A program made the position numbers and the translations under genes. This document shows, piece after piece, positions 35,000 through 38,562 of a stretch of 64,000 bases of DNA. Every line of letters starts with the position of its first letter. Position 1 is the stretch's first letter. This DNA comes from Cytophagaceae bacterium (lineage in GTDB: Bacteria; Bacteroidota; Bacteroidia; Cytophagales; Spirosomataceae): positions 1 to 64,000 of the forward strand of contig JAIXWL010000010.1 of the NCBI GenBank assembly GCA_027491315.1, given 5' to 3'. The notes under the pieces are model-generated. The model did no database searches. It was not told the origin of the DNA and worked only from the letters and a program-made list of their open reading frames with translations.

Positions 35000-35290
35000 A
35001 TGGCTAACAATCCTCAAATCATGCAAATCTTCCTTTTTGGTGGAATCTTTGTCGTGTTTTATTTTTTCATGATTCGCCCACAACAAAAAAAGGCGAAAGA
35101 AGCAAAAAAATTCATTGATGAATTAAAAACAGGTGATAAAGTAGTAACCATTGGTGGAGTACATGGAACCGTCGTTTCCATCCGCGAAAAAACTTTGGTA
35201 GTAGAAATTGACTCAAGCAAAGGAGTACGCGTGGTTTTTGAAAAATCAGCTATTTCAAAAGATGCTTCTTCTCGCTTAACAGAAGAATAA
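35000..35290 (+). CDS. yajC: Preprotein translocase subunit YajC
   Basis: 96 residues: one transmembrane helix (IFLFGGIFVVFYFFMIRPQQKKAKEAKKF contains the family RPQQKK motif) and a small cytoplasmic beta domain (LKTGDKVVTIGGVHGTV). YajC associates with SecDF at the Sec translocon. Normal length. The nusB-DUF1573-yajC-coaE order is common in Bacteroidota. Confidence 0.95.
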   Translation: MANNPQIMQIFLFGGIFVVFYFFMIRPQQKKAKEAKKFIDELKTGDKVVTIGGVHGTVVSIREKTLVVEIDSSKGVRVVFEKSAISKDASSRLTEE

Positions 35291-35294
35291 ACTC

Positions 35295-36716
35295 ATGAAT
35301 AAAAGCCTACGACCTTTATTAGGGATCACAGGCGGAATGGGATCCGGCAAATCAATCATTTGTCGGATTTTTTCATGTCTAGGCATTCCCATATTCGAAG
35401 CCGACAAAGTTGCTCATCACTTAATAGAAACAAATCCGGCCATTCAACAAAAAATCATCGGTATTTTTGGCCCAAAAAGTTTTGATCCTCAAGGAAACTA
35501 TAACCGAGACCATATTCGTAGCCAAGTAAAATCAAATAATGATTTATTGGCGGCTTTAAACCATATTATTCACCCCGCCGTTCGTGAAGCATTACAAGTT
35601 TGGGCTCAAGAACCCAGTGCGGCTCCTTTTAAATTATACGAGGCTGCTTTGTTGACGAATAAAAATAAACCTTCCTATATTTCAAAAATAATAGCTGTTG
35701 ATTGCCCTTTAGAAGAGCGCATGGAACGACTACAAAAACGAAACCAATTAACTTTTGAAGACAATATGAAATTAGTAAAAAACCAACCTAGTCAAGAACA
35801 ATACCTTGAAGGAGCCGATTTAATAATCAAAAATGGGAAAAACGACCGTGTATGGCCTCAAGTAGCGTCTATTTTCAAAAAGCTTTCTATTGTGTTAATT
35901 ACTTTGGCACTTTTTAGTCAGAGTAGTTTAGGACAAATCAAAGCCATGACCTTTAATATACGGATGGATACCAAGTCAGATGGCATCAATCAATGGGCTA
36001 ATCGCAAAGATCATTGTGCGGAACTTGTTAGCTATCACCAAGCCGATATTATTGGCATGCAAGAAGCTTTTATTCATCAAATCAAGGATTTTGCCGAAAG
36101 GTTACCGGGTTTTGCTTGGTTTGGCCGTGGGCGTGATGATGGCAAGGAAGAAGGTGAATTTTCTCCTTTATTCTATAATACCAAGAAATTTAAAGTATTA
36201 GAACAAAAGACTTTTTGGTTATCTGATTCCTGCGATAAAGTAGGTTTTGGTTGGGATGCAGCTTGTCGACGGGTGGTTACTTGGGGACATTTTCAGGACT
36301 TAAAAACAAAAAAGAAATTCTACGTTTTTAATACGCATTTTGACCATTTAGGAAAAGTAGCACGCCGAGAAAGTGCCAAATTGGTCTTAGCCAAAATCAA
36401 AGAAATAGCACAGAATAGCCCCGTTATTTTATTGGGAGACTTTAATGCTAAACCCGATGATGAACCTATCCAAATTCTTCTGGATGCGAAGAACCCAGAT
36501 AGATTAACGAATTCGGAAAGTATCAGTAAGCTAGGCCATTATGGGCCTAAGAATACCTTCAATGCTTTCAAAGAGGAAAGAGAGAATAGCCAAATTGATT
36601 ATATTTTTGTAAAGAATGGCGTGACATGCGAGCAACATGCAACGCATTCAGAGACCTGGGCTAACCGTTTTCCAACTGACCATTTCCCGGTAAGTGCTAC
36701 CCTCCGAATCCCTTAA
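35295..36716 (+). CDS. coaE: Dephospho-CoA kinase fused to an endonuclease/exonuclease/phosphatase domain
   Basis: 473 residues in one uninterrupted frame. Residues 1 to about 197 are a full-length dephospho-CoA kinase: P-loop GITGGMGSGKS, the EADKVAHH region, HIIHPAVREAL and DCPLEERMERLQKR. Directly after VWPQVASIFKK comes a hydrophobic stretch (LSIVLITLALFSQSSLGQ, about 198-216) that reads exactly as the signal peptide of a secreted protein. Then follows a complete EEP domain: MTFNIRMDTKSDG, QEAFIHQIKDF, FNTHFDHLGKVARRESAK, ILLGDFNAKPDDEP, IDYIFV and DHFPVSATL. Either the two genes fused when the coaE stop was lost, or the hydrolase starts internally (GTG at 35892 is the only in-frame candidate near). 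Confidence 0.88.
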   Translation: MNKSLRPLLGITGGMGSGKSIICRIFSCLGIPIFEADKVAHHLIETNPAIQQKIIGIFGPKSFDPQGNYNRDHIRSQVKSNNDLLAALNHIIHPAVREALQVWAQEPSAAPFKLYEAALLTNKNKPSYISKIIAVDCPLEERMERLQKRNQLTFEDNMKLVKNQPSQEQYLEGADLIIKNGKNDRVWPQVASIFKKLSIVLITLALFSQSSLGQIKAMTFNIRMDTKSDGINQWANRKDHCAELVSYHQADIIGMQEAFIHQIKDFAERLPGFAWFGRGRDDGKEEGEFSPLFYNTKKFKVLEQKTFWLSDSCDKVGFGWDAACRRVVTWGHFQDLKTKKKFYVFNTHFDHLGKVARRESAKLVLAKIKEIAQNSPVILLGDFNAKPDDEPIQILLDAKNPDRLTNSESISKLGHYGPKNTFNAFKEERENSQIDYIFVKNGVTCEQHATHSETWANRFPTDHFPVSATLRIP

Positions 36717-36756: not shown

Positions 36757-38562
36757 ATGGAAAATTTTATTGTTTCTGCGCGAAAATACCGTCCCACCCT
36801 GTTTGATTCAGTGGTTGGTCAGAACCATATTACCACCACATTAAAGAATGCGATAAAGTCTAATCACTTAGCCCAAGCTTTCTTATTTTGTGGCCCAAGG
36901 GGCGTTGGTAAAACTACCTGTGCTCGTATTTTAGCCAAAACAATCAATTGCGAAAATCAAACTCCTGAGGGTGAAGCTTGCGGAACCTGTTCTTCTTGCC
37001 AATCATTTCAGGAAAATACTTCGTTGACCATTCATGAATTAGATGCGGCTTCCAATAACTCGGTAGATGACATACGCAGCTTGATTGATCAAGTACGCTA
37101 TCCTCCTCAAAGTGGCCGGTATAAGGTCTATATCATAGATGAGGTACATATGCTTTCTGCTCAAGCATTTAATGCCTTTCTAAAAACCTTAGAAGAACCT
37201 CCCTCCTATGCTATTTTCATCTTGGCTACGACGGAAAAGCATAAAATCTTGCCAACTATTTTATCGCGTTGTCAAATCTTTGATTTCAACCGCATCAAAT
37301 GGCAAGATATGGCTTTGCACTTAGCATCTATTGCCGAAAAAGAGCAAATCACGGCGGAACCAGCCGCCTTGGAATTGATTTCCATCAAGGCAGATGGAGG
37401 TTTGCGTGACGCCTTGTCCATGTTTGATCTCAATGTCACCTTTTCAACGGACAATACCTTACGTCATAAAGCTGTTTTAGAAAATTTACATATTCTCGAT
37501 AGCGACTATTATTTCAGCCTAACAGATCATTTATTAGAGCAAAATCATACTGCCGTGCTTCTTCTGATAGAAGAGATTATGCGCAAAGGATTTGATGGAT
37601 TACAATTCATTTCAGGACTGATGGAACACTTGCGTTTACTACTTTACGCTAAGGACCCGAAGACTTTGACTTTGATGGAAATGAGTGAGGAAAGTAAGGC
37701 AAAGTTCAAAAAACAAGCCGAATTGACAAGCACCTCATTTTTACTTTCAGCCATGAATATCTGTGCACAATGTGAAGTAAATTACAAAGGGGCCAAGAAT
37801 CCAAGATTGCATTTGGATTTAAGTTTGTTGAAAATCAACTACTTAAATTCCGTATTCAAGCCTAAGCAAACACCTGTGGTGGAGGACAGTGCTGGAAAAA
37901 AGCTTGAGGCTTCGGCCAATCCCCCCATTGAGAATGCCACTAAATTAACCGAGGAGCCCATTTCACAGGAGGAAAATATGGTTCCTGTCAAAGAGGAGCT
38001 TATTCAACAAGAAATACCCCAAAAAACCGCAGAAGTAAGCGAGAGCAGCCATGCAGGACCTTCTACAAATCCATCCCGACTAAGCATACAAGCGACCGGA
38101 TTACGTAGTGCCAAAAAGCTAGTTGAAACAAAGCAAACGGAACAAAAAGAAGCTACCTTATTGACTGCTAGTACCACAGGAGCAGAAAACAAAGCATTTG
38201 AATTAGCTGATATCAGTCGCGAATGGATGCGCATTGCCAAAGCGTATGAGACTAATCAAGATATCAATAAGTTTGTGATGATGAATCGCCCGATTGAATT
38301 GATTGGCACGGTATTGCATCTAAAAGTTGAAAATGAATTACAAATTCAACAGTTTAATGAATCCATCCGCATGGAAGTTCTAAATCAATTACGGACTTCT
38401 TTACAAAACTTTGAAATTGACATTGTCTTAGATATCCTGATTCAAGAAAAAAGTGATAAAAAAGTATTGTACACCCAATCAGACAAATACGAATACCTTT
38501 CTGAGAAACATCCTATATTAGTTGAGATGAAACAAAGAATGGGATTGGATTACGAATTTTAA
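36757..38562 (+). CDS. dnaX: DNA polymerase III subunit gamma/tau
   Basis: 601 residues. The AAA+ clamp-loader part (1 to about 365) has RPTLFDSVVGQNHI, Walker A CGPRGVGKTTCARILA, zinc-site cysteines in NCENQTPEGEACGTCSSC, Walker B VYIIDEVHML and sensor ATTEKHKILPTILSRC. A low-complexity linker rich in E, P and T follows (about 375-485), then a C-terminal domain for polymerase binding. No obvious slippery A-tract for a short gamma form was searched exhaustively. The stop overlaps the convergent antitoxin by four bases. Confidence 0.96.
   Translation: MENFIVSARKYRPTLFDSVVGQNHITTTLKNAIKSNHLAQAFLFCGPRGVGKTTCARILAKTINCENQTPEGEACGTCSSCQSFQENTSLTIHELDAASNNSVDDIRSLIDQVRYPPQSGRYKVYIIDEVHMLSAQAFNAFLKTLEEPPSYAIFILATTEKHKILPTILSRCQIFDFNRIKWQDMALHLASIAEKEQITAEPAALELISIKADGGLRDALSMFDLNVTFSTDNTLRHKAVLENLHILDSDYYFSLTDHLLEQNHTAVLLLIEEIMRKGFDGLQFISGLMEHLRLLLYAKDPKTLTLMEMSEESKAKFKKQAELTSTSFLLSAMNICAQCEVNYKGAKNPRLHLDLSLLKINYLNSVFKPKQTPVVEDSAGKKLEASANPPIENATKLTEEPISQEENMVPVKEELIQQEIPQKTAEVSESSHAGPSTNPSRLSIQATGLRSAKKLVETKQTEQKEATLLTASTTGAENKAFELADISREWMRIAKAYETNQDINKFVMMNRPIELIGTVLHLKVENELQIQQFNESIRMEVLNQLRTSLQNFEIDIVLDILIQEKSDKKVLYTQSDKYEYLSEKHPILVEMKQRMGLDYEF

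Follow-up and report, generated by a model that had tools for sequence, protein, structure and literature searches.

The cytochrome b/c1 precursor FbcH of Bradyrhizobium is a chain of two proteins that signal peptidase splits at an internal signal sequence; both parts are membrane-bound and belong to one complex. Dephospho-CoA kinase (CoaE; PF01121, TIGR00152), which catalyses the last step of coenzyme A synthesis, normally ends at about 200 aa, and it occurs as a domain of longer chains in the CoaE-UPF0157/GrpB fusion of Actinobacteria, given as NCBIfam PRK03333 (PMC2765170), and in the CoaD-CoaE CoA synthase (human COASY, PDB 2f6r), whose partner domains are cytoplasmic and lack a signal peptide or export. 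Secreted endonuclease/exonuclease/phosphatase (EEP) hydrolases of Bacteroidetes (3g6s, 3mpr and 4c1r, the last being BT3783 and titled mannosyl-6-phosphatase) have a signal peptide ending in [AGS]/Gln, and the free-standing Bacteroidetes relatives that we read have their own start codon. Here we describe a gene whose CoaE leads on, through a signal peptide, to another enzyme, a hydrolase like these in fold, catalytic motifs and [AGS]/Gln signal peptide but with CoaE in front of that peptide in place of a start of its own. Unlike FbcH, it is predicted to place a cytoplasmic anabolic enzyme before an unrelated exported hydrolase. Fusions of CoaE are known and so is splitting at internal signal sequences, as in FbcH; we found no description of a CoaE-EEP pairing in the titles and abstract starts searched.

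The window that we analysed is a 64,000-nucleotide stretch from a Cytophagaceae bacterium, and near-identical named records (Aquirufa nivalisilvae, A. antheringensis, A. ecclesiirivi and A. beregesia) place it in the genus Aquirufa. Positions 35295-36716 of its plus strand form a single open frame of 473 codons, running from ATG to TAA (36714..36716) with no internal stop; as the earlier note had described, CoaE passes uninterrupted through a hydrophobic segment into a full EEP domain, with both domains above their Pfam cut-offs. The CoaE domain (35295..35885, residues 1-197) matches PF01121 over residues 9-181 (131.8 bits; cut-off 27) and TIGR00152 (115.4 bits; cut-off 65.55), it has a relative in PDB 1jjv (E 3.2e-27), and Foldseek pairs the front half of the model with CoaE of Klebsiella aerogenes and E. 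coli. It has the P-loop GITGGMGSGKS, with the pattern GITGG[MI]GSGKS and invariant G13, G14, G16-G18, K19 and S20 among 20 aligned proteins, and by family scores and P-loop the front half is identified as a predicted dephospho-CoA kinase. This domain is the sole CoaE match of the genome.

The rear half matches PF03372 (Exo_endo_phos) over residues 218-463 (66.3 bits; cut-off 24.5), retains the motifs FNIR, MQE, NTHFDH, GDFN, IDYIF and TDH, and has N221, E257, N346, H348, D382, N384, D435, D462 and H463 invariant in 20 aligned proteins; we take the catalytic residues to lie among these. By the match and the motifs it is a predicted metal-dependent hydrolase of the EEP superfamily, with a putative mature form from Gln214 to residue 473 (35934..36713). 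Its PDB relatives are 3g6s (E 2.7e-54), 4c1r (E 1.2e-50), 3mpr and 3l1w, and Foldseek with this half of the model returns 3g6s (E 1.3e-26), 3mpr and 4c1r. A natural guess at its role would be that of a secreted enzyme with phosphomonoesterase or phosphodiesterase activity. The genome has three EEP-family places in all, including that in the fusion. In three other family genomes (L113, L120 and L121) a free-standing EEP lies shortly after a SusD-like gene, recognised by eye from nothing more than the ends of the sequence; a role on glycan phosphates would fit this placement. AlphaFold2 (20 rows) models the fusion protein with a mean pLDDT of 80.9 and a pTM of 0.61, as two confident domains linked by a helix (residues 186-205) and a poorly predicted stretch (204-211).

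The gene follows NusB, YtxH, DUF1573 and YajC genes and precedes a DnaX-type gene. The yajC gene (35000..35290, plus strand; PF02699, 105.9 bits), coding for a Sec translocase accessory subunit, ends 4 bases upstream, and the dnaX-type gene for a DNA polymerase III subunit lies at 36757..38562 (plus strand; PF13177, PF12169). Both are outside the fusion and are retained in the loci of the genus that we read, the dnaX-type gene in fused and EEP-less genomes alike.

Between the two domains lies a putative internal signal peptide (35877..35933; residues 195-213, KK-LS-IVLITLALF-SQSSLG), delimited by alignment of 28 fused proteins and a score matrix, with a positive n-region KK, a 9-residue hydrophobic core and then small residues. 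The proposed signal peptidase I site is Gly213/Gln214 (35931..35936), with Ser208/Gln209 as the alternative. All 28 fused proteins have a short hydrophobic core after at least one nearby Lys or Arg, closing in a small residue and then Gln, a site that is constant although the flanking residues vary; Gln was sought only 3-6 residues before MTFN, and the search was thus partly directed. Position P1 is G in 17, A in 10 and S in one, and P3 is S in 15, A in six, T in three, V in two, and L and M in one each. Much the same ending is seen in free-standing EEPs, where 62 of 77 proteins have a signal peptide closing in [small]-x-[AGS]-Gln and four give a lipobox-like match (the 77 have an ATG and come from the fetched loci, with some duplicates and some other phyla; two lacking an ATG were excluded). 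A signal-peptide score matrix built from 46 of these 62 peaks at the junction in all 28 fused proteins, in agreement with the earlier proposal that the segment is a former signal peptide; without the Gln column, the peak stays there in 24 and shifts into EEP in four.

The strength of the site varies. Top scores range from 3.3 to 25.1 in the 28 fused proteins, compared with 14.2-29.9 in the 46 training peptides, whose scores were not cross-validated. Cuts in the window protein score 10.9 before Gln209 and 9.2 before Gln214, both under the training minimum, and some relatives score lower than the window protein, down to 3.3 in L029; the G at P1 of most fused proteins is less favourable than A. 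Strong sites are found in a clade of seven fused relatives (L014, L015, L017 and L021-L024), and cleavage may therefore differ between clades; four proteins (L015, L017, L022 and L023) have two consecutive small-Gln sites.

These properties suggest a substrate of signal peptidase I under the Q-rule of Bacteroidetes, with charge, short core, small residues at P3 and P1, and Gln at P1'. According to PMC5837995, 71% of the signal peptidase I substrates predicted in Bacteroidetes have, on average, Gln after the cut, pyroGlu N-termini were observed in five species, including seven proteins of Cytophaga hutchinsonii, and inner-membrane proteins are said to remain untested for the rule. The genome has one signal peptidase I gene. 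A search for glutaminyl cyclase gave a single match to PF05096, a weak one of 24.0 bits against a cut-off of 22.3, within an 835-aa frame, which is not proof of the enzyme, and a crude scan of the other genes in the window, in which an internal ATG of one enzyme was misflagged, yielded too few clean signal peptides for the Q-rule to be counted.

The earlier note had the signal peptide turned into a permanent membrane anchor, leaving an uncut protein with CoaE inside and the hydrolase outside. The single frame, the positive residues on the cytoplasmic side, the predicted helix 186-205 and the middling score of the window's cleavage site all fit such a protein. However, a permanently anchored bitopic protein should span the membrane with a segment of normal length and lack a cleavage site, and the junction appears to do neither: the core is no longer than in cleavable signal peptides, the longest hydrophobic run having a median of 12 residues in the 28 fused proteins (7 by a strict letter set) and 12.5 in the 46 free-standing EEPs, and the [GAS]/Gln site is kept throughout the fused proteins though an anchor would not need it. 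Given the short core and the conserved site, signal peptidase I more probably cuts the chain than leaves the two enzymes tethered for good, and we consider the mere anchor possible but rather unlikely. That the EEP is never exported, the protein being a bifunctional enzyme of the cytoplasm whose linker is hydrophobic, seems very improbable; both domains act on phosphate groups and nothing else beyond the fusion itself speaks for it, whereas every fused protein has the signal-peptide features with the Q site, and 66 of the 77 free-standing relatives have either a Q-site signal peptide or a lipobox-like match.

A junction made as two products by internal initiation, with full-length CoaE-EEP accompanied by a separately started EEP having its own signal peptide, would depend on a start codon near the junction. 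Over the 45 codons that lead up to the EEP fold, the window gene has only two in-frame start-like codons, GTG at 35892 (codon 200) and TTG at codon 204, and the nearest in-frame ATG is M218, inside the fold; the view that this gene lacks a junction ATG and any good internal start thus holds. Among 29 fused genes, M218 is the only start-like column near the junction common to all, and it belongs to the MTFN strand, which free-standing EEPs also carry within the mature part; the next best column is filled in 12 of the 29, four times by ATG. Several relatives (L008, L010 and L012, for example) have an in-frame ATG-AAA at the junction, and in nine (L008, L010, L012, L014, L015, L017 and L022-L024) an in-frame ATG lies 23-32 codons before MTFN from which a fair signal peptide would result, so that a second, shorter product is possible in some clades. 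As a general explanation this seems to us quite improbable, for the start is not conserved: an in-frame ATG is missing between residues 178 and 217 in 10 of the 29 genes, three of the six in the window's clade among them, and the fused gene of a sister genus (G174) has no ATG, GTG or TTG across the 45 codons before MTFN. Nor does internal initiation explain why CoaE never regained a stop while EEP remained. Programmed frameshifting was rejected, slippery-type heptamers occurring in 12 of the 29 junction regions at differing places with no conserved slippery site.

The fusion is widespread in Aquirufa. A whole-protein search of 38 Aquirufa genomes gave matches in 35 and none in three, and a full-length, stop-free fusion is present in 28 of the 38, the window's own included, at 58-100% identity (in one, L021, a contig ends at the gene start). 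Two genomes have contig-cut pieces: G035 has one of CoaE, and G036 has a fused piece (residues 115-473) and a second piece of CoaE (residues 1-188; L030 and L126), whose overlap in CoaE points to a strain mix or two alleles. In five genomes (G008, G009, G011, G020 and G025) the gene codes for CoaE alone, at about 200 aa. Among the matches listed for 222 family genomes, 38 of them Aquirufa, the only full-length fusion outside the genus is that of G174, with 61% identity and an open frame; across 390 genomes of the order, the full-length matches listed are in seven Aquirufa genomes and G174 only. In a sample of 139 genomes from across the class, CoaE was matched in 137, and apart from that of the window each best match lies in a frame of at most 245 aa. 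Plasmid records match in 74 of 72,556 cases, none over more than 80% of the query.

The same open frame in 28 Aquirufa genomes and a sister genus, in separate assemblies and several from named isolates, answers the earlier suggestion to compare the coaE and EEP genes of relatives, and it refutes the loss of a stop codon through an error of assembly or of a single base, to which we give practically no credence. A stop at the junction in close relatives had been named as evidence against the fusion. Such a stop does occur in the five CoaE-only genomes, but it does not refute the fusion because the whole hydrolase is gone there and the DNA shows later deletions.

An independent fusion in Flavobacterium was rejected; L084 and L098, from two genomes, matched residues 8-472, and these matches (L084:2911-4416 and L098:2911-4422) are an ABC-type ATPase gene lying 0-3 bases before a free-standing EEP gene with a signal peptide. 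In another genome of the same class (G576), a 380-aa frame (L150:925-2067, minus strand) has a cytidylyltransferase (9-129) followed by CoaE (161-344), a bacterial CoaD-CoaE-like fusion, and a normal CoaE gene is also present.

The neighbourhood of the gene appears older than the fusion. In 14 CoaE loci of other family genomes CoaE stands alone, some adjoining YajC and DUF1573, with no EEP within 1.5 kb on either side, and the yajC-coaE arrangement in such non-fused genomes (L136, for example) indicates that it predates the fusion; nine free-standing EEP loci of other genera have no CoaE in the 5-8 kb read. In the five CoaE-only Aquirufa genomes the order YajC-CoaE-DnaX is unchanged minus EEP. 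In G008, G011 and G020, CoaE ends where the signal-peptide core starts and is followed by the last bases of EEP and the downstream spacer of the fused sisters, and in G009 and G025 CoaE draws its new final codons and its stop from spacer that lies after the EEP stop in fused relatives. Two Aquirufa sub-lineages have deleted the hydrolase later, by different deletions that each left a DNA scar, and the kinase stayed. A whole-protein search found no EEP elsewhere in these five genomes, which are 79-94% complete. A tree of the neighbouring proteins YajC, DUF1573 and DnaX (39 rows, several only one third filled and some on long branches) nests the EEP-less genomes inside the fused ones, with a minimum of four changes (one gain and about three losses), some forks being weakly supported. 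Around the hydrolase, a search for direct repeats found two weak families only.

Pooled within six clades, CoaE has a pN/pS of 0.166 and the junction (residues 186-216) one of 0.207, with 0.283 in the junction core, and EEP has 0.057, ratios that are rough because pS is high (about 0.53-0.62). These values suggest that the junction evolves as coding sequence and that EEP is the most constrained part. On sequence comparison, we conclude that the frame of CoaE, signal peptide and EEP is ancestral to Aquirufa and its sister genus and is under purifying selection. EEP and the signal-peptide core have been dropped twice without harm to CoaE, suggesting that the two enzymes do not need each other and that CoaE does not need the membrane; this dispensability speaks against a metabolic partnership.

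We favour, as a fairly probable explanation, a two-enzyme precursor whose CoaE is cytoplasmic and whose EEP is exported through the internal signal peptide and cut off by signal peptidase I, export and cleavage being what we infer from the sequence. With no stop at the end of CoaE, each completed CoaE chain runs into EEP unless cut, and the sequence thus leaves little room for anything but translation as one chain. The ribosome would make one chain and CoaE would fold in the cytoplasm; the internal signal peptide, with its n-region KK inside, would take the hydrolase through the Sec translocon, and signal peptidase I would cut directly before Gln214 (or Gln209). The hydrolase would then be freed to the periplasm with a Gln N-terminus, likely as pyroGlu, and CoaE would be left with a short hydrophobic C-terminus in the membrane, a tail that may persist or be trimmed away. 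The fusion most likely began with the arrival of an EEP gene downstream of coaE, with loss of the coaE stop and of the EEP start. The joint gene would work as two because CoaE tolerates a tail and a signal peptide is all that EEP requires.

We speculate that, with the essential enzyme CoaE made only as the front of a Sec precursor, both the membrane and secretion have a hold on CoA synthesis and CoaE is delivered to the inner membrane beside the translocon. Although unlikely, this would mean that export or signal peptidase capacity could set the release, turnover or activity of CoaE, and the fusion allows a direct test of CoaE working at the membrane; as it is found in cultured, harmless freshwater bacteria, it is open to experiment. 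Signal-peptide predictors read N-termini, and gene prediction must also seek signal peptides inside proteins. The gene would be a natural case of one gene feeding two compartments via a buried signal peptide with a retained cleavage site, in which a large folded cytoplasmic domain before a signal peptide would have been tolerable to the Sec pathway for the age of the genus.
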